DNA of 64,000 bases from Blepharisma japonicum (Eukaryota; Ciliophora; Heterotrichea; Heterotrichida; Blepharismidae): the NCBI GenBank assembly GCA_949751835.1, contig CATKHK010000081.1, forward strand, positions 124,001 through 188,000, read 5' to 3'. The first letter of the stretch is position 1. Each line of letters starts with the position of its first letter. Shown piece by piece: positions 4,372 to 59,787 of this stretch. The translations under genes and the position numbers were made by a program. A model generated the notes under the pieces. The model saw only the letters and a list, made by a program, of their open reading frames with translations. It was not told where the DNA came from and did not search any database.

Positions 4372-4896
4372 ATGATTAAATTCGCAATTCTGATGACCTT
4401 ATCTCTTGCGGTCTTTGCCACAACACCAAAAATATTCAAAACAGAATTTGTAGAGACCGAAGGTATCGAGTGCGGCTCACAAGATGAACATAATGAATGC
4501 GATGAGCAACAAGTCAAAATTGTAAAAGGCGAAAAAGGAGAAAAAGGTGATAGAGGTTGTCAAGGCCCACCAGGCCCTCAAGGTCCAGCTGGCCCACAAG
4601 GCTGTCCAGGTCCAAAAGGAGAACAAGGCTGCAAAGGAGAAAAAGGAGAAACAGGTTGTCAAGGTCTTCAAGGACTACAAGGCGAGAAAGGAGAGAGAGG
4701 ATGCCAAGGTCTTCAAGGGCCACAAGGCTGCAAAGGAGAAAAAGGAGAAAGAGGACCAAGAGGAGTTTCTGTAAAATGCATTGAAGTCGATGAATGGGAT
4801 GAAAGTGACGAATGCAATGAAAGATCTGGAAGCTCTTATTCCTCAGTCAAATCTTCATGCAGCACAGCAAGCGGACAATGGAGCGCAGCACACTAA
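4372..4896 (+). CDS. Secreted collagen-like protein with cysteines inside the Gly-X-Y tract
   Basis: 174 residues. Residues 1-16 ([16 protein letters not shown]) are a clean signal peptide. Residues about 53-130 make 26 consecutive Gly-X-Y triplets ([18 protein letters not shown]... to GPRG) without interruption. Six triplets carry Cys in the X position (GCQ, GCP, GCK), regularly spread, which would allow inter-chain disulfides in place of hydroxyproline-based stability. The tract is flanked by acidic Cys-containing segments ([16 protein letters not shown] before; [13 protein letters not shown] after) and ends in a Ser-rich tail. Known of the family: Gly-X-Y tracts trimerise into a triple helix. 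Inferred: an extracellular or cortical/extrusome structural protein. It stands alone in a gene-poor region and its coding sequence is more GC-rich than neighbours because of Gly/Pro codons. Confidence 0.85.
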
Positions 4897-13467: not shown

Positions 13468-15501
13468 TTAATTATCTTTAAATATATTCACCACCATCCC
13501 AGATCTTGGTTTTGGTTCAAACCACGTCGACTTTGGTGGCATAATCTGGCCTGCATCAGCAATAGCCATTACTTCCTCTACCTGCACTGGATAAAGTGCA
13601 ATTGCAGCTACACAGTCCTTTTTCACAAGTCCATTATCCTCCTTCACTTCATTTTCAGTGATCTGTTCAGTTCCATCGGACATTTCCCATATCTTCTTCA
13701 TAATTTTCCTAGTTCTCCCTCCAGCAGTTTCAGTTCTCAAATTGCAAGTCACTTTAACAGCTCCATCAAGCCAATCATAAACTTCATCAGCCAGCTCTGG
13801 AGCACCCCCAGGAATTTCTACACTATCAGATTCAGCACTATCATGAAAGTCTCCTGCAAAAATGATACTTGATGTAGTCTTATATTCTGAATGAGGGGCA
13901 GATCCAATTCCAACCTTATGGAAATCTGGGTTAAGCAATGCATGCCTGTGAGGACGTGTAGGAAGACCATCATCAATTAAAAATGCACATACAACTTCAA
14001 AACCATCAACTGAAGTATAGTCTAAAGCTTCTGCAAGACTTCCTGTCCACCTTCCGAAATATTCAACACGGTCTTGAAGGTTATTTTCCATTGACCCGAC
14101 ATGGCCAATAATTCCGAGTGATCCAGAGTCATTACAGTGAGCTTGTGCTGCTTTAGACAGACCTTCAGACCAAATTAAGGCATGCAAAGGTTCAGCTGCT
14201 TTAAGTGCATTAATGGCTTCAATAACAGCACTGATACCTTCTCTAGTCATAATAGGGACTGACCCAGCTCTATGCTTTGATCTATTTTCTTTGTAGCTTT
14301 TGAGGGTGTGCTCAATCCTTTCTGCAAATTTTTGTGGATTCGTTCTTGCTAAATTGATTTCGTTGAAAATACTTAGTATTATCTGATCCCAAGTCAATGG
14401 CTTGACATTTCCACATCTTTTTTCAAGCTCCTCTAAGCCTCTAATTCCTCCAACAAAGTCAATTCTTTCGCTTGTGGTCAAATCATCTATTCCTAAAATT
14501 GGTGCTAGGCATAATTTAGTCAATAAAAATGAGTCTAAATTGCTTACTGGGTCATCTCCAACAATTTTTTCGGGTCTAATTTTAAAGCCAATCCACTTCC
14601 CATTGAGATACAATGAAAAATGATGTTTTGCAGGAGGATGGGGATCTTGTATATCGTATAATTCAAAGTTTTCTCTCAAAGCCGTTAAGAACTGTTCAAC
14701 GGTTAATCCATTCAAATCTCTCAAAACTCTATTATAGTCAAAAATTTTAAGCTGATTATGCGGGAAATGCAATGCTAAGAAGTATTTGCTGCTTTTGGCT
14801 GGCTTTTCTCCTTTTTCTTCTGCTCTTTTTTGCCTAATTTTCCCTACATTGAAGGCTGAAGCAGCTCTATGATGCCCATCAGCAATATAAGTATGAGGAA
14901 CAGACTTAAATAGGTCAACTAACTCCCTAGATTCCTCCGTTGTGCACTTCCATAGGACATGTCTTATCCCATCCTCAGTAGTTGTATCTATAAATGAAGC
15001 TCTTGCTGCAACATTCCTGACTAGGGCATCTATCTCTTCTACTGCTTCATAAGTAAGAAATACCGGGCCAACGTTGGCACCTTGGGTGTCTGTTAATTTG
15101 GTTCTGTCTTCTTCTTTCTTTTTCCTTGTGAGTTCATGCTTTTTGATGCGGTTTTGCTCGTAATCTTTAACAGATGCTCCAGCCATAACTCCATACTGTG
15201 TTCGCCCATGCATGGTAATTGCGTAGACATAAACAATTTCGCTTTCTTCTTTAATTAGCCAGCCATTTTCAACAAATTTCTTTAAATTGTCATGACCTGT
15301 TTGGTAGACAATTTCAGAATATAGATCGACGTCGTGAGGAAGGTCGATTTCTGGTTTATTGCAATGCAAAAAAGAATATTGGTTACCTTCAGCCATTGCA
15401 CGAGCTTCGTCACTGTCAAGAACGTCATAAGGTGGAGCAATTAGCTTGTGGGCTATTTCTTGGTTAGCAACGTACCCATGAAATGCACGAATTTTTACCA
15501 T
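13468..15501 (-). CDS. DUF1015-family protein with an inserted CAP/SCP domain
   Basis: 677 residues from Met at 15501 (MVKIRAFHGY, the usual DUF1015 start); six further upstream codons are open but unlikely. Residues 1-363 are DUF1015: KLIAPPYDVLDSDEAR, YGVMAGASVKDYEQNRIKKHE, HTYIADGHHRAASAF, and RIDFVGGIRGLEELEKR. The domain then breaks and residues about 370-550 are a complete CAP (SCP/PR-1) domain: FNEINLARTNPQKFAERIEH, LSKAAQAHCNDSGSLGIIGHVG, RPHRHALLNPDFHKVGIG, IIFAGDF. After a linker the DUF1015 C-terminus resumes at about 628-677: CVAAIALYPVQVEEVMAIAD, then QIMPPKSTWFEPKPRSGMVV. No stop or frameshift lies at either junction. DUF1015 function is unknown; CAP domains often bind lipids or act extracellularly, but no signal peptide is present here. 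Confidence 0.93.
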   Translation of the reverse strand: MVKIRAFHGYVANQEIAHKLIAPPYDVLDSDEARAMAEGNQYSFLHCNKPEIDLPHDVDLYSEIVYQTGHDNLKKFVENGWLIKEESEIVYVYAITMHGRTQYGVMAGASVKDYEQNRIKKHELTRKKKEEDRTKLTDTQGANVGPVFLTYEAVEEIDALVRNVAARASFIDTTTEDGIRHVLWKCTTEESRELVDLFKSVPHTYIADGHHRAASAFNVGKIRQKRAEEKGEKPAKSSKYFLALHFPHNQLKIFDYNRVLRDLNGLTVEQFLTALRENFELYDIQDPHPPAKHHFSLYLNGKWIGFKIRPEKIVGDDPVSNLDSFLLTKLCLAPILGIDDLTTSERIDFVGGIRGLEELEKRCGNVKPLTWDQIILSIFNEINLARTNPQKFAERIEHTLKSYKENRSKHRAGSVPIMTREGISAVIEAINALKAAEPLHALIWSEGLSKAAQAHCNDSGSLGIIGHVGSMENNLQDRVEYFGRWTGSLAEALDYTSVDGFEVVCAFLIDDGLPTRPHRHALLNPDFHKVGIGSAPHSEYKTTSSIIFAGDFHDSAESDSVEIPGGAPELADEVYDWLDGAVKVTCNLRTETAGGRTRKIMKKIWEMSDGTEQITENEVKEDNGLVKKDCVAAIALYPVQVEEVMAIADAGQIMPPKSTWFEPKPRSGMVVNIFKDN

Positions 15502-52670: not shown

Positions 52671-53178
52671 ATGGCAATTTTTTATCAGAATTGGGAAAAA
52701 GTATATAAATAATTCTAGCTATGCAAATATCAATATAAAATTTAGATCTGAAATTATATTGTTTTTAATGCCAAAAACGATATTACTGTAAATATTAAAA
52801 ATTATTATTTCATAATTTCGGCCAATTTTTTATAATCAATATGCCCATTACCATCAATATCAGCCTCTCTTACCATTTCATAAAATTCCTCATCGGTTAT
52901 TTTATTACATGGGCAGGTCATAATATGTTTGAGTTCAGCAGTGCTCAGAATTCCAGTTCCATCTCTATCAAAGACTTTCAGAGCTTCAATTATTTCTTTT
53001 GTTTCATCATTCTTGTTTATCTTTCGTGCCACAAGACTTAAAAACTCAGAAAAATCAATAGTTTCATCTCCATCAGTGCTAAGTTCTCGAGTCATATCGC
53101 TGACTTCCGCTTCTGTTAGATTTTGATCAATTAATCGTAATGCTGGGATAATGTCTTTTATTGTAATTGTTCCATTCA
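52671..53178. repeat. Right unit of a direct tandem duplication (left unit 52163-52670)
   Basis: Both units start 'aatggcaattttttatcag' (52163 and 52671), continue through an AT-rich 3' flank and then the C-terminal part of a calmodulin-like gene. Offset about 500 bp, roughly 80-85% alike by eye. The right unit carries the open gene, the left the pseudogene. Confidence 0.85.
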
Positions 53179-53248
53179 TTTCTTTGTCAAATAATGAAAA
53201 GACTTCTTTTAATTCTGTAATTTGATCTTTGCTTAACTGTTCTGTCAT
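52805..53248 (-). CDS. Divergent calmodulin-like protein with mostly degenerate EF-hands
   Basis: 147 residues, calmodulin length. Four EF-hand positions: DKEMNGTITIKD (no Gly at 6, Asp not Glu at 12), STDGDETIDFSE (Ser at 1), DRDGTGILSTAE (canonical), DIDGNGHIDYKK (Lys at 12). Only the third loop looks able to bind Ca2+ normally, so it probably acts as a partly Ca2+-insensitive relative of calmodulin. No central-linker change. Left member of a cluster of five minus-strand calmodulin genes; the conserved upstream element lies 33 bp before its start. Confidence 0.9.
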   Translation of the reverse strand: MTEQLSKDQITELKEVFSLFDKEMNGTITIKDIIPALRLIDQNLTEAEVSDMTRELSTDGDETIDFSEFLSLVARKINKNDETKEIIEALKVFDRDGTGILSTAELKHIMTCPCNKITDEEFYEMVREADIDGNGHIDYKKLAEIMK

Positions 53249-53280
53249 TGAATAAAAGTTATAAATACATTAAATAAATT

Positions 53281-53305
53281 TGCGACAATTTCCAAAACAA
53301 AATGG
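53281..53305 (-). promoter_or_regulatory. Conserved upstream element of calmodulin-cluster genes, copy 1
   Basis: Plus-strand TGCGACAATTTCCAAAAC followed by AAAATGG, 33 bp upstream of the start of the calmodulin-like gene at 53248. Same element with the same core GCGACA recurs at 56113, 59010 and 59832 upstream of other cluster members. Confidence 0.6.
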
Positions 53306-54096
53306 TATTATAGAATGATGATACCCGCGCGACTCTAGAAGCAATTGATTGCATTAGAACTGAAATTAGCCGATATGCTATCTATCACATGTTTATTATT
53401 TTATTCTATTGTTTATTTTTAATTTTTTGTGTTGCAGTGTTCGTATATCTTAAAAATGAAATTTATATATAAGTGATAAATCTTATGCAGCTTAAAACAA
53501 TATAACTTCTTTCTCTGCAAAGTCAATTAGAATAACTCCTAGAATCATTCACTTCTGCTCTTAAATCTTTTACAATGACACTACTTTAGATAAAAATTTT
53601 TATATGATTTTAAAAGAGATTTATAAAATAAGTATATAAGTCTACTTAATAAGCTTGCAAAAACATTCAAACTATAGCAACAGAAAAAAATCTTCAAAAT
53701 CCTTTATTAATTTTCATTTGCCTAGAAATCTAATTTTAATATATTTTATTTGTTAAATTTAGCTTATATTCTAATCATGGGATTAGCTTCTTGTATGCTT
53801 AAATGATAAGATATCTGATTTCCAATTCATAATAAATTTCTTTTTACACATTCCTCAAAAAAATTCTCAAAAATTTTTTTATCGGCTTATATTTCAAACT
53901 TGCATGGATAAATGCTCATAGTGAAAAAATTATAATTTATAATTTCTAGTAATTATATCCAGCGCTTTTGGGAGTATAAAATTGCTTATATATGTATAGA
54001 CTCATTGTCTAGGTGTTATGCAACCAGCATATAAAAAATTAAATGTCTCCTCTTAAATTCTGAAAATTAATAAATTCTTCAATTAAATTAAATTGG
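53306..54096. other. Non-coding spacer in the calmodulin cluster
   Basis: About 790 bp, AT-rich, no gene seen. No clear copy of neighbouring repeats recognised here. Confidence 0.45.
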
Positions 54097-54549
54097 TTAT
54101 TTAGCCAACATCATCCTTACGAATTCTTCATAACTGATATGGCCACTTCCATCTGTATCTGCTTCTTTAATCATCTCTTCAATTTCTTCATCACTCAGTT
54201 TTTCGCCCAAGGTTGCCATAACTTGCTTCAATTCATCAGCAGTGATAAACCCACTTCCATCTCTATCAAAAGCTTTGAAAGCTTCCATAATTTCTTCGGT
54301 AGGGTCTGTCGATGGTGCTATTCTTTTTGCCATAAGATTAGCAAACTCTGGAAAATCGACAGTTCCATTACCATCGCGATCCACTTCATTGATAATGTCT
54401 TGAAGCTCAGCTTCAGTTGGGTTTTGGCCTATAGATCTCATGACTGTTCCAAGCTCTCTGGTTGTGATCTGCCCATTGCCATCCTTATCAAATAGTGAAA
54501 AGGCTTCTTTGAGCTCAGCCATTTGCTCTTCAGTTAAATTGTTGGTCAT
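54097..54549 (-). CDS. Calmodulin-like protein, four intact EF-hands
   Basis: 150 residues. All four loops canonical: [48 protein letters not shown], each with Asp at 1, Gly at 6 and Glu at 12. Differs from the cluster's canonical calmodulin at about a third of positions (linker [16 protein letters not shown] rather than [15 protein letters not shown]). Probably a specialised calmodulin or centrin/caltractin-like sensor; the lack of an N-terminal basic extension speaks against centrin. Its upstream region lacks the GCGACA element of the other four. Confidence 0.92.
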
Positions 54550-55239
54550 TATTTATTAACAATGCAGCATATTTGAGGAATTTATGGGCATGAGCTCAAT
54601 TTTGAATATTTTACAAGCAATAAAATATAAGAAATAGTGTATTAAGCAATATTGAATTTGAATTGAATTAAAAGATGAGATAAAAAAATTAACAATTTTA
54701 ATAGTTTACTCTTTTCTCTTAAGCATTTTTATTATAAATTCTTCCTAAATGTGATTTTATATATAAAGAGAGTTATACATTTATTAAGCTGAGACTCGAT
54801 TAATATGGCACTTGATTAAATCTAAATAAATAGAAAATTTTTATTCTTTATAAAACTAAGATTGAAAGTTTCTATTTCTCAAGAGCCAAGCTAAATAAAT
54901 ATTTGCTATCTCCGTATTCGTAAATAAGCAGAGGGGAATAAAATGTTTTAATGATAACTTGAATATATTCAAATATAGAATAGTATCCATATATTGAAGC
55001 TCTTGATATAAAAATGAGCTGAATTACTTAAATAAAAGATTTTAAAATCAAAAACCTTTTTAAATAATTTAAGACTCAATATTTGAAGAATATACATTTC
55101 TCACATCATTTTTGCTAGGATAGCAAAACCAGAAAAAAATATTTCTAGGAAAATTTCGTTAATTGGAAAAATTTTTCAATCTAAGTCATTTCTATTATAA
55201 ATTATATTTATAAATAATTGCTGATTAAAATAATGATAC
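54550..55239. other. Non-coding spacer
   Basis: About 690 bp, AT-rich. The piece 54800-54915 is similar to 57275-57385 (both begin 'tatggc-cttgattaaatc') and marks another dispersed duplication. Confidence 0.5.
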
Positions 55240-55259
55240 TGCGACAATTTACAAACAAA

Positions 55260-55389
55260 TGGAGGGATTTGATATTTCAGAATTTAAACATAAAGCTAAA
55301 GAATATTTAATAGTAAATGCTATAAATGATAATAATCATATGGATCTGGAGACTAAATATATTTTTAAACATAAGTCTTTCTTTTCTTA
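55260..55389 (+). pseudogene. Short relic frame next to the upstream element, copy A
   Basis: ATG 55260 opens about 42 codons (MEGFDISEFKHKAKEYLIV, then NAINDNNHMDL, ending FFS). Copy B at 59032 opens a similar peptide (MEGSNMLESILKVKKYLIA, EAINDDNQMDL) with a different ending. The shared middle suggests a small gene or the 5' end of a decayed one, divergent from calmodulin. Weak. Confidence 0.3.
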
Positions 55390-55440
55390 AAGTAGTTTAA
55401 ATAGGAATTTTATATGTTTGTTACTATCCTAGCATAAATT

Positions 55441-55530
55441 ATAGGGATTTGCCCTTTTTAGAAGGCCTCTAGAATGTGGAGGATCACTCCCACATGCCAG
55501 AAGCCTCCCACAAAATGGGTAAGGCTTTAT
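55441..55530. mobile_element. MITE-like hairpin insertion (absent from copy B)
   Basis: About 90 bp with long imperfect terminal inverted repeats: left arm 'TTGCCCTTTTTAGAAGGCCT' then 'CTAGAATGTGGAG', right arm 'CTCCCACATGCCAGAAGCCT' then 'CCCACAAAATGGGTAAGG'. The two arms pair around a short loop near 55485. It is less AT-rich than its surroundings and is missing at the same point of copy B (59230-59245). Non-coding; no target-site duplication can be fixed with certainty. Confidence 0.6.
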
Positions 55531-55618
55531 ATTGGATTTTTATTCCATAAATAAAGCAACTTTAATGAAAATTTTCCTTATTATATATATAAAAAGCCTT
55601 TAAATCAAAAGAAAATAG

Positions 55619-56068
55619 TTATTTAGCCATCATCATTCTAACGAATTCTTCATAATTGATATGCCCATCTCCATCTAAATCTGCTTCTCTAATCATTTCA
55701 TCGACTTCTTCGTCAGTTAATTTTTCTCCCAAATTCGTCATTACATGTCTTAACTCAGCAGCACTAATAAGTCCATTCCCATCTCTGTCGAAGACTTTGA
55801 AAGCTTCAATGAGCTCTTCTTCAGTGTCTTGGTCTTTCATTTTTCTTGCCATAAGGCTTAAGAATTCAGGGAAATCAATGGTTCCGTTTCCATCAGCGTC
55901 GACTTCGTTGATCATATCTTGAAGTTCAGCTTCGGTTGGATTTTGGCCTAGGGATCTCATGACTGTTCCAAGCTCTTTAGTTGTGATGGTCCCATCACCG
56001 TCTTTGTCGAATAATGAGAAAGCTTCCTTGAATTCTGCTATCTGTTCTTCAGTTAATTGTTCTGCCAT
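55619..56068 (-). CDS. Calmodulin, copy A
   Basis: 149 residues, canonical calmodulin: [20 protein letters not shown], four perfect loops ([48 protein letters not shown]), linker [14 protein letters not shown], end VRMMMAK. The universal Ca2+ sensor that in ciliates controls swimming, ion channels and secretion. Its predicted protein is identical to that of copy B (59338-59787), although the DNA differs at scattered synonymous sites. Start and stop are unambiguous; no intron. Confidence 0.98.
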
Positions 56069-56112
56069 TATTTATTAGTTATGAAATTTTCGTGGATATT
56101 TATACATGGAAC

Positions 56113-56137
56113 TGCGACACTTTCCAAAACAATATGG
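56113..56137 (-). promoter_or_regulatory. Conserved upstream element of calmodulin-cluster genes, copy 2
   Basis: Plus-strand TGCGACACTTTCCAAAAC then AATATGG, 45 bp upstream of calmodulin copy A. Same spacing as in copy B. Confidence 0.6.
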
Positions 56138-56360
56138 TGTGTTAAGTAAAATTGGTATTTTTGGTAATTAAGAATTTGAAAGATAATTAAAGCTGTGGGG
56201 GCCTTATAAAAGTTTAAATTTAAGTTTTTAATATGATACTTTAAGAATTTTTTTTTTTAATTTATCAGATTAAATCAATATAGAGGATATTTTTATGCTT
56301 AATACGGTTATGCAAAGAACTAATTATAAATAATTTAAACGATAGAAAAGCATTAATTTT

Positions 56361-57162
56361 AGTAAAATTGCCAAGCAGTTTGATCAGCTTCTATAGCAAC
56401 ACTTATGGATTCCTAAGAAACAGCTTCTTGAAGTGCATTAATATTATTTGGAGTAATATCAGTAAATGAAATAATTTGAGCAGCAGGGATTTTAGTTTTG
56501 TCTTTACTACATCTTCTTCAACGAACTGTGTATGGATAGTTGTCTTCTGCTAAAATTTCATTAGCTATAATTTATTTAAAAGCATTGTCCATAAGGCCAT
56601 CATTCAGCTGAAATTCTCATATGCAGATGAGCAATCAGTAAGTTCTTGCTCAGAAAAGGGTTATAGGGTATCCAGCTATAAACCAAGCCCCTTCTTCCCA
56701 TTTTGCCTTTGGGGTTTTACATAAGAAACTTCACCACCAAAAGTCCAGATGGCTTGTGAAGGAATTTCTGCATCTATTTTATGGTTTTGTATGCTCAATC
56801 TAGTTTGATTTGAAATTTTTTAGGCATATATATATTTTTGTATTTGGATGGCAGTAAAATTATTTAACTTAAGTGTTCACCTGTCGCTTTAGAGTTAAAA
56901 TTGCAGATAAAAACAGAATTTCTTTATAAATTTTGAATCGGGATTAATATTCTAGTTTACCTGAATAAATTTTGTTTCATTTGAAAAGGTAATCTTGGAT
57001 CTCGTGCTCTTCGATTTGATACTGAGATGTCTTGAAAGTGCTTTTGGAATTGTTTAAGATTGGGATGGTAGCTCTTATACCTGTAATGGCAAAAATTCTG
57101 AAAACCGATAGTAACATTTTTAGATTGTTTTGGGGAAGATCTAGTTGGCAGAATTCGTCCAT
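56361..57162 (-). pseudogene. Decayed cathepsin L copy
   Basis: Minus strand matches the cathepsin L gene at 51043-52101 over its first three quarters, from MDEFCQLDLPQNN at 57162 (compare MDGFRQLDSSPKQ) down to the FYSTGVI region at about 56361, where the match ends. Many TAA/TAG codons, single-base deletions and a deletion across the active-site Cys region (about 56690-56720) rule out function. The 3' quarter, including His and Asn motifs, is gone; the break lies exactly where the calmodulin duplication copy A begins. Confidence 0.9.
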
Positions 57163-57430
57163 TTTATTATATAATTTTGAACAAAATTACCAATATGCAT
57201 ATAGATAAGATTACATTCCATCTTATTCATGGGCAGGATAATATGATAAATATATAATAAATTATAATATATTGATATGGCGCTTGATTAAATCTAAATT
57301 AGGGATATTTTATTCTTTATTAAAAGTAAGATTTGAAGATTTATATTCTAAAGAATTATGCTAAATATTTACTATCTTTACATGAAATAATTTCATTTTA
57401 TTTGCTTCATAAACAAAAAACTTAACTATC
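57163..57430. other. Non-coding spacer with a dispersed repeat
   Basis: AT-rich; 57275-57385 repeats 54800-54915. No gene. Confidence 0.45.
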
Positions 57431-57601
57431 TACCGCGGCTGGTCTAGGAGGATCTGCATTAAATGGAAGGTCAGATCTACCTTTGTCAGTATAATTGGGC
57501 TTTCACTAGGTCCTTGAGGTGTGCAGCAGCAAGCTTATCACGATTTCACGAAGTAAATAAAGGCTACAATAAGGCTTTGTGTTGAGCTGAAGGATGAAGG
57601 A
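57430..57601. other. Segment of unlike base composition beside the assembly gap
   Basis: From about 57430 the sequence becomes clearly less AT-rich ('ccgcggctggtctagg'...). On the minus strand protein-like runs appear (EELYSFLV, ELVAAGLILEVKIDWRW, TQSLIVAFIYFVKSW, SPIILTKVDLTFHL) broken by stops, continuing into the repeat at 57602-57728. Family not recognised; possibly a decayed gene or mobile element. Confidence 0.35.
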
Positions 57602-57728
57602 GGCCTAGACGATCATCTTCAGTCAATTTTTACCTCTAGGATAAGGCCTGCAGCCACTAGTTCTTAAACTAAAAAGGAGTATAGCTCTTCCCCAGAGATG
57701 GTGATGTCGCTCATAGGTGATGGCATCA
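57602..57728. repeat. 127-bp direct repeat flanking the gap, left copy
   Basis: Identical by eye to 57829-57955 ('ggcctagacgatcatcttc' to 'gtgatggcatca'). The left copy touches the first N and the right copy follows the last N, the usual signature of contig ends that overlap but were scaffolded with a standard gap. Confidence 0.95.
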
Positions 57729-57828
57729 NNNNNNNNNNNNNNNNNNNNNNNNNNNNNNNNNNNNNNNNNNNNNNNNNNNNNNNNNNNNNNNNNNNNNNNN
57801 NNNNNNNNNNNNNNNNNNNNNNNNNNNN
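57729..57828. other. Assembly gap of exactly 100 N
   Basis: A run of 100 N, a conventional size for a gap of unknown length. Nothing can be said about its content; given the identical flanks it may be an artefact. Confidence 0.99.
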
Positions 57829-57955
57829 GGCCTAGACGATCATCTTCAGTCAATTTTTACCTCTAGGATAAGGCCTGCAGCCACTAGTTCTTAAACTAAA
57901 AAGGAGTATAGCTCTTCCCCAGAGATGGTGATGTCGCTCATAGGTGATGGCATCA
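57829..57955. repeat. 127-bp direct repeat flanking the gap, right copy
   Basis: Same sequence as 57602-57728. After it the sequence returns to AT-rich non-coding DNA. Confidence 0.95.
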
Positions 57956-58526
57956 GACAATATTCTCAATTTTCTACATTTTCCATGGTGAATTCACTCC
58001 AAAGTCTATAGTAGAATTGATATGAAAGGAATACAAATTCTCAGACATTGCATATAAAGAATATCATGGCAACTTTATGCATTTTTAGAGATTTTAAATA
58101 GGCTCATTAAAAGTTTTTGAAGATTTTTGGGAGGCCAAAACATTAAGTTTTCTTCTAATTTTTCAATTATAAATTAGATTAGATAACGGTGCACTTATGG
58201 TTGCTTTTTCCTACAATACCATTTTCCAGTGAAAACACAAGGTGATAGTGGTGCTCGCATGGCTTTAATCTTCGACTTGAGCCCTGCAGAAATTTTATGT
58301 TTTCAGATAGTTGAAAATTATCCAATTAAAAACTGCTTTTATATAATTGAGGAAATTAAAGGGCGAATCTATGTCAGTTTCTTATGGATATTACCTTCTC
58401 ATAATAATTTCACCTGCATGGGCTCCTACATAAAAATTTATAAATTTATAAGTGGAGATTTAATAAAAGAATTTTTGATATTAATTATTTCAAAATAATT
58501 ATTGTCCATAACCATACAATTTTATA
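57956..58526. other. Non-coding stretch with one weak frame
   Basis: About 570 bp. ATG 58259 opens 79 codons on the plus strand to TAA 58498 (MALIFDLSPAEILCFQIVEN, KNCFYIIEEIKGRIYVSFLW), hydrophobic and without recognisable family; it may be a relic. Otherwise nothing seen. Confidence 0.3.
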
Positions 58527-58973
58527 TTAATAACCTATCATCATTTCTAAAAATTCTTCATAAATAGTGCATCCATCTTCATCTATATCAGCTTTCCTTA
58601 TCAATTCATCAACTTCTTCATCTTTCAATTTTTCTCCAGATCTCATTATAATTTCTCTCAGTTCAGCTAACCCTATTCGCCCGCTTCCATCTTTATCAAT
58701 ATCTCTAAACTCCCTAATAAGTTCTGTTTTAATTTGCAAAATCTTTATGATTTTTGAGACAATATCTAAGAAATCAGAAAAATCAAGAGCTCCAGCCTCA
58801 CATTCAACGCTCATAATCAATTTGATAAGTTGTGATTCAGCTATATTATATCCTAGATACTTAATAATTTGTTCAAGTTCTCTAGTAGTTATACTTCCAT
58901 CAGAGTCATTATCAAACCTAGAATAAGCTTCTCTTAGCTTTGTTATTTGATCTTGAGAAAAATGCTCTGCCAT
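58527..58973 (-). CDS. Divergent calmodulin-like protein
   Basis: 148 residues. Loops: [12 protein letters not shown] (canonical), [12 protein letters not shown] (degenerate, no Asp at 1), [12 protein letters not shown] (canonical), [12 protein letters not shown] (acceptable). So the second site is lost and the others kept. About half the residues differ from the cluster's calmodulin, showing rapid change while the fold stays. The upstream element lies 37 bp before its start. No counterpart is found at the matching place in duplication copy A. Confidence 0.9.
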
Positions 58974-59009
58974 TAATTATGAGAAAATTATGAAGTTAAA
59001 AATAAAAAC

Positions 59010-59034
59010 TGCGACATTTTACAAAACAAAATGG
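59010..59034 (-). promoter_or_regulatory. Conserved upstream element of calmodulin-cluster genes, copy 3
   Basis: Plus-strand TGCGACATTTTACAAAAC then AAAATGG, 37 bp upstream of the divergent calmodulin-like gene. The orphan match in copy A lies at 55240-55262. Confidence 0.6.
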
Positions 59035-59337
59035 AGGGATCAAATATGCTAGAATCTATACTTAAAGTTAAAAAATATTTAATAGCAGAAGCTATAAATG
59101 ATGATAATCAAATGGATCTGTATCGAAACTTATTATAAAATTAAAATCTTTGCTTTCTTTTCTAATTTTACGATTAAAGCCTTTTCAGTAAGAATTTTAT
59201 ATATTTTTACTATCCAAGCATAAATTAATAGGTAATATCATCTTATTTTATAAATAAACCCCTATAAAGAAAGCAACTTTGATGCAAATTTTCCTTATTA
59301 AATAGATAAAAAAGCCTTTTAAATCAAAAGAAAATAT

Positions 59338-59787
59338 TTATTTAGCCATCATCATTCTAACGAATTCTTCATAATTGATATGCCCATCTCCATCCAAATC
59401 TGCTTCTCTGATCATTTCATCGACTTCTTCGTCAGTTAATTTTTCTCCCAAATTCGTCATTACATGCCTTAGCTCAGCAGCACTAATAAGCCCATTCCCA
59501 TCTCTGTCGAAGACTTTGAAAGCTTCAATGAGCTCTTCTTCAGTGTCTTGATCTTTCATTTTTCTTGCCATAAGGCTTAAGAATTCAGGGAAATCAATGG
59601 TTCCGTTTCCATCAGCGTCGACTTCGTTGATCATATCTTGAAGTTCAGCTTCGGTTGGGTTTTGACCGAGGGATCTCATGACTGTTCCAAGCTCTTTAGT
59701 TGTGATGGTCCCATCACCGTCTTTGTCGAATAATGAGAAAGCTTCCTTGAATTCTGCTATCTGTTCTTCAGTTAATTGTTCTGCCAT
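59338..59787 (-). CDS. Calmodulin, copy B
   Basis: 149 residues, identical in predicted sequence to calmodulin copy A (55619-56068). DNA differences are synonymous (for instance 'ccatctaaatct' against 'ccatccaaatct', 'gatctttc' against 'ggtctttc'). All four EF-hand loops are canonical. The two genes are 3.7 kb apart, same strand, each with the upstream element at 45 bp, so both are probably expressed. Confidence 0.98.

Follow-up and report, generated by a model that had tools for sequence, protein, structure and literature searches.

A CAP protein nested within a DUF1015 protein in Blepharisma japonicum, with the empty site kept in a paralogue

An open reading frame of the ciliate Blepharisma japonicum that holds a CAP domain in the middle of a DUF1015 protein raises the question of whether the two families have become a single protein and, if so, how this came about and what the inserted domain may do. 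The frame lies in a window of 64,000 nt, that is, the whole stretch of DNA analysed here (contig C81, positions 124001-188000, of a 45.2-Mb genome in 224 contigs), and a sequence-only reading had described it as apparently a true domain-in-domain fusion. The domain search suggested at that time placed both families in the 677-residue protein above their curated Pfam cut-offs: DUF1015 (PF06245) at residues 4-324 (E 2.7e-95; 319.5 bits against a cut-off of 25.8) and CAP (PF00188) at residues 428-542 (E 3.3e-8; 34.8 bits against 21.1). The curated DUF1015 model comprises 325 positions and stops before the insert site; the resumption of DUF1015 after the CAP part was therefore tested against relatives. 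Alignment bore out both points at which the DUF1015 sequence had been read to break and to resume, namely after GGIRGLEELEKRC (residue 363; window 14413/14412) and at KKDCVAAIALYPVQ (residue 627; window 13624/13623). In the predicted structure the insert adopts a CAP fold with fair to high confidence, and the block of residues 361-370, in the region of linker 1, has a mean pLDDT of 71. From the base composition, 263 codons without TAA or TAG would arise by chance with a probability of 2e-7; the homology of the junctions to paralogues, free-standing CAPs and prokaryotic loci is more decisive than this figure. The features of the gene are listed in Table 1.

Table 1. Parts and motifs of the fused gene, in window coordinates
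Feature	Position	Strand	Basis or remark
Fused gene, whole	13468..15501	minus	ATG at 15501, TAA ending at 13468; 677 aa; intron unnecessary
DUF1015 first part, residues 1-363 (Pfam match 4-324)	14413..15501	minus	Pfam, paralogue alignment
Linker 1, residues 364-370, entry into insert	14392..14412	minus	Model and empty site in plain paralogue
CAP core, residues 371-565	13807..14391	minus	
C-terminal tail of inserted CAP, residues 566-620	13642..13806	minus	Three strands (model); present in five free-standing CAPs
Linker 2, residues 621-627	13621..13641	minus	pLDDT <50 (model)
DUF1015 last part, residues 627-677, including MPPKSTWFEPK	13471..13623	minus	Homology to relatives
ADGHHR motif, DUF1015 core, residues 207-212	14866..14883	minus	Invariant in 26/26 prokaryotic rows; kept in 3/3 ciliate proteins
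MPPKSTWFEPK, residues 654-664, C-terminal of insert	13510..13542	minus	10/11 positions invariant across 26 prokaryotic rows
CAP signature His467	14101..14103	minus	Arg in C108 copy
CAP signature His518	13948..13950	minus	Alignment

Elsewhere in the window, five calmodulin-like open frames lie on the minus strand at 52805-59787, two of which (55619-56068 and 59338-59787) encode identical proteins, and a short open frame at 4372-4896 encodes collagen-like GXX repeats after a hydrophobic start.

A profile search of the contigs found at least three DUF1015 matches in the genome. Besides the C81 gene, C108:37185-39209 shows the same fused arrangement, its product being 64% identical to the C81 protein over residues 1-675 (327.0 bits for DUF1015; 26.3 bits for CAP, with the cut-off at 21.1), and C122:77625-78860 encodes a plain, uninterrupted DUF1015 protein of 423 residues (316.2 bits). 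The site is empty in the plain protein, reading ELEKRC-HE-DCQVAFALYP, and filled in the other two, as ELEKRC-[263]-KKDCVAAIALYP in C81 and ELERRC-[261]-KKDCVAAIALYP in C108. The frames of both fused copies are open across the whole insert. C108 and C122 have TGA at one and two positions, respectively, where the other copies have Trp, and UGA is reported to encode Trp in Blepharisma stoltei (PMC9942806). The plain C122 copy also carries an N-terminal extension, MLPRLVKRTISIS, that by eye resembles a mitochondrial targeting peptide; unlike C122, the fused copies begin directly at the DUF1015 domain, and the two types may therefore act in different compartments.

The DUF1015 relatives of bacteria and archaea consist of the same segments, and none of the best 80 of 242 confirmed places has an insert comparable to the 263 residues nested in the ciliate chain: in all 80, the insert site falls within one alignment piece, over which the lengths differ by -4 to +6 residues. 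The two DUF1015 segments are thus adjacent in the plain paralogue as well as in these loci, as had been claimed for ordinary members of the family. When searched with two ciliate CAP queries, the flanks of up to 5 kb of the 80 loci contained no CAP gene. The same flanks, which are unequal in length, contained a PGDH-like gene in 27 of the 80 loci and SerC in 20, and two annotated plasmid records show the gene order serC, then an NAD(P)-dependent oxidoreductase or 3-phosphoglycerate dehydrogenase family protein, then DUF1015. A DUF1015 match was present in 15 plasmid records, none of which covers 80% of the fused protein, and no relatives were found in viral contigs. In an alignment of 26 prokaryotic rows, of which 24 come from the 80 loci and two from the plasmid records, 65 columns were invariant, and their residues are kept at 62 positions in C81 and at 61 in both C108 and C122. 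The three changes in C81 (R342T, L644V and L665P) affect positions that are all changed in C122 too. The domain is present in 50 out of 140 genomes drawn from a single bacterial class, yet its name is scarce in the open-licence literature.

The insert comprises more than a CAP core: it corresponds to nearly the full length of free-standing CAPs (258-268 residues), from a point close to their start methionine to one close to their stop, tail included. Five free CAPs are 60, 60, 59, 51 and 42% identical to the C81 insert, and 44, 44, 46, 38 and 36% identical to that of C108. A genome search gave 15 CAP matches, which were grouped into 10 genes: the two fused ones and eight free ones, that is, five of the insert type, a distant one (C22), and the genes on C52 and C26, which carry five and two CAP repeats, respectively. 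The repeat genes (C52:188624-191905 and C26:332313-333785) are single open frames without an evident signal peptide. As judged from N-termini and hydropathy only, with no dedicated predictor, all 10 CAP genes lack an evident signal peptide; hydrophobicity peaks in a stretch of C52 with a mean of 1.78 over 12 residues. This lends no support to the earlier description of the domain as secretory-type, and sets these CAPs apart, on the same hydropathy criterion, from secreted CRISP/PR-1 type proteins, which have an N-terminal signal peptide. His467, Glu491 and His518, which we take to be CAP tetrad positions from the alignment among ciliate CAPs and from known CAP motifs, are all kept in C81; in C108 His467 is replaced by Arg, and Glu491 and His518 are kept. 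Among known CAP proteins, GAPR-1 (GLIPR2) is reported to reside on the cytosolic leaflet of the Golgi and to bind zinc via two histidines (PMC6900432); it is free-standing, whereas the ciliate CAP is nested and has an extra C-terminal tail. The bacterial SCP/CAP protein 4ifa is described as extracellular and, in contrast to the ciliate CAP, is un-nested. No sequence link to the Tetrahymena ciliary chain 8tid_P was found, and the main text of its presumed source paper does not contain SCP or CAP as a whole word. With paralogues, prokaryotic loci and predicted structure in agreement, the C81 gene is best read as what it had been taken for, a true domain-in-domain fusion in which a whole CAP protein lies in frame within a DUF1015 protein.

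In a DUF1015 tree of 43 proteins (three ciliate, 38 of the 80 prokaryotic loci and two plasmid records), the fused pair was recovered with support of 100/98 and the three ciliate proteins with 100/100 on a long stem. In a CAP tree of 14 of the 15 domains (C22 was omitted), the two inserts and the five free CAPs formed one set (100/100) whose internal order was unsettled: the inserts paired in 25% of 200 bootstrap trees, and constraining them together gave a log-likelihood 1.26 above that of the free search (p-AU 0.57). The CAP tree alone would therefore fit either a single insertion or separate insertions in C81 and C108. A single insertion is preferred because the junctions are the same and because of the DUF1015 tree, and one insertion followed by duplication appears to be the simplest history. 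The parts of the two fused proteins have diverged to different extents, with dN/dS ratios that are rough because synonymous sites are saturated: the DUF1015 first part is 73.6% identical (dN/dS 0.11), the whole insert 45.6% (0.26), the CAP core 51.0% (0.16), the CAP tail 31.5% (0.69) and the DUF1015 last part 90.0% (dN/dS undefined).

We therefore propose, with a probability of roughly 0.6 for the reading as a whole, that a cytosolic CAP gene was inserted into a DUF1015 gene, that the product was duplicated, and that the CAP lobe positions or regulates an enzyme with a SerK-like core. Of this reading, the domain architecture, the empty site and the family from which the insert came are direct observations, as are the junctions common to both copies and the conservation of DUF1015 core residues. 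In the proposed history, a complete CAP gene, core and tail, would have entered the DUF1015 gene in frame in a ciliate ancestor, at the end of a helix and directly before the next strand of DUF1015. The insertion would postdate the split from the plain C122 paralogue, and duplication of the fused gene would have given the C81 and C108 copies. Held on two flexible linkers, the CAP lobe might then position or regulate the enzyme from outside catalysis, for example by placing it at a membrane or a partner, by analogy with the cytosolic GAPR-1. The faster change of the CAP part than of the DUF1015 core (45.6% against 73.6% identity between C81 and C108) counts against such a role. It may instead be that the CAP lobe is a passenger tolerated at a permissive surface site, decaying slowly and without a role while the enzyme works. 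This would fit the low identity of the C108 insert to free CAPs (36-46%) and to the C81 insert (44%), with the C81 insert 59-60% identical to its three nearest, as well as the ratio for the CAP tail and the loss of His467 in C108; the open frames of both copies, the three signature residues kept in C81, the low ratio for the CAP core (at saturated synonymous sites) and the predicted CAP fold argue against it, and we regard a passenger as rather unlikely. For the C108 copy taken separately, the loss of His467 together with the faster change suggests that the protein may do without its CAP lobe.

As for the enzyme of the proposed reading, the DUF1015 part matches the ParB-type fold of the free serine kinases SerK and SbnI (PDB 5x0k, 5x0b, 1vk1 and 5uje), at an identity of only 12-17% and with an extra N-terminal region as a difference. 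Having such solved fold relatives, DUF1015 is no longer the orphan family that it had been called. A search of solved structures by sequence with the DUF1015 profile gave an unrelated amidase as the best match (E 0.043) and no SerK or SbnI chain up to E 10, and the link to SerK therefore rests on the fold. On this basis, the DUF1015 part may be a ParB-type, nucleotide-dependent enzyme that acts, like SerK and SbnI, on free serine or phosphoserine, although similarity of fold does not in itself prove serine chemistry. Clear-cut homologues of SerK were not found in bacteria and eukaryotes, as stated in the SerK paper (PMC5120207), and fusion partners of the ParB-CTPase fold are reported to include 'DU1015', probably DUF1015 (PMC12704722).

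A further possibility is that the DUF1015 part runs mainly from phosphoserine to serine and replaces SerB in the ciliate. The genome encodes SerC (514.9 bits, above cut-off) and a PGDH-like protein, one of two similar proteins, which when scanned was closest to TIGR01327 (277 bits, below the cut-off of 454), and no SerB above cut-off (best 35.8 against 144.15, among 59 weak matches); four of these weak matches were inspected and have a DKTGTLT motif, like P-type ATPases. The serine pathway of the ciliate may thus have a gap at SerB. In 50 genomes drawn from the 80 prokaryotic loci, SerC was above cut-off in 35 (41 at E<=1e-10) and SerB in just two, compared with seven of 14 control genomes. 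Sixteen of the 50 nevertheless matched SerB at E<=1e-10, as did two of three DUF1015-bearing controls (Bacteroides ihuae and Methanosarcina acetivorans, but not Thermotoga maritima). Among the 140 genomes of one class, 50 had DUF1015 and 36 SerB above cut-off, the latter in eight of 50 with DUF1015 against 28 of 90 without (p 0.069) or, at E<=1e-10, in 16 of 50 against 44 of 90 (p 0.074), a weak trend uncorrected for kinship, in genomes of unstated completeness. The phylogenetic profile is weakly compatible with DUF1015 standing in for SerB. A ciliate SerB too distant from the model, or another phosphatase, may account for the gap, and replacement of SerB seems doubtful. More ambitious, and more doubtful still, is a version in which a ligand of the CAP lobe (metal, lipid or partner) would control or place the chemistry of a SerK-fold serine or phosphoserine enzyme that possibly replaces SerB.

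Two remaining explanations concern the integrity of the product. The lobes could be translated as one chain and later cleaved within the flexible linkers, so that a nicked enzyme would remain once the CAP part is released; the low confidence of linker 2 and the mean pLDDT at linker 1 would allow this, but the segment after the insert contains invariant residues and would need to stay bound, and we consider cleavage very improbable. An error of assembly (a chimaera) or of the gene model, or an intron of unusual length, is very unlikely, since both junctions recur identically at a second locus with open frames and with non-matching neighbour frames, and introns are reported to be predominantly 15-16 bp in B. 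stoltei (PMC9942806). Comparison of the open frames of window positions 3001-27000 with the surroundings of the C108 gene (17.9 kb) and the C122 gene (19.4 kb) also gave no sign of a segmental duplication around C81 and C108, only the gene itself being matched between these loci.

The components belong to known families, and for their nested combination no report was found in a search of open-licence papers. When one whole domain is nested in another, the event has as a rule long passed by the time it is observed. This genome still contains the empty site, the donor family and two filled copies, which allows the steps of the event to be followed one by one. For DUF1015, an uncharacterised family, the case suggests a concrete activity that can be assayed, namely on free serine or phosphoserine together with a nucleotide. 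Several abstracts describe the way in which CAP domains act as elusive; the fusion would provide these domains with a covalently linked partner for tests. If the more ambitious version with a CAP ligand were true, the ciliate lineage would have assembled and retained an enzyme of a new type, with a CAP domain placed before the conserved C-terminal segment.
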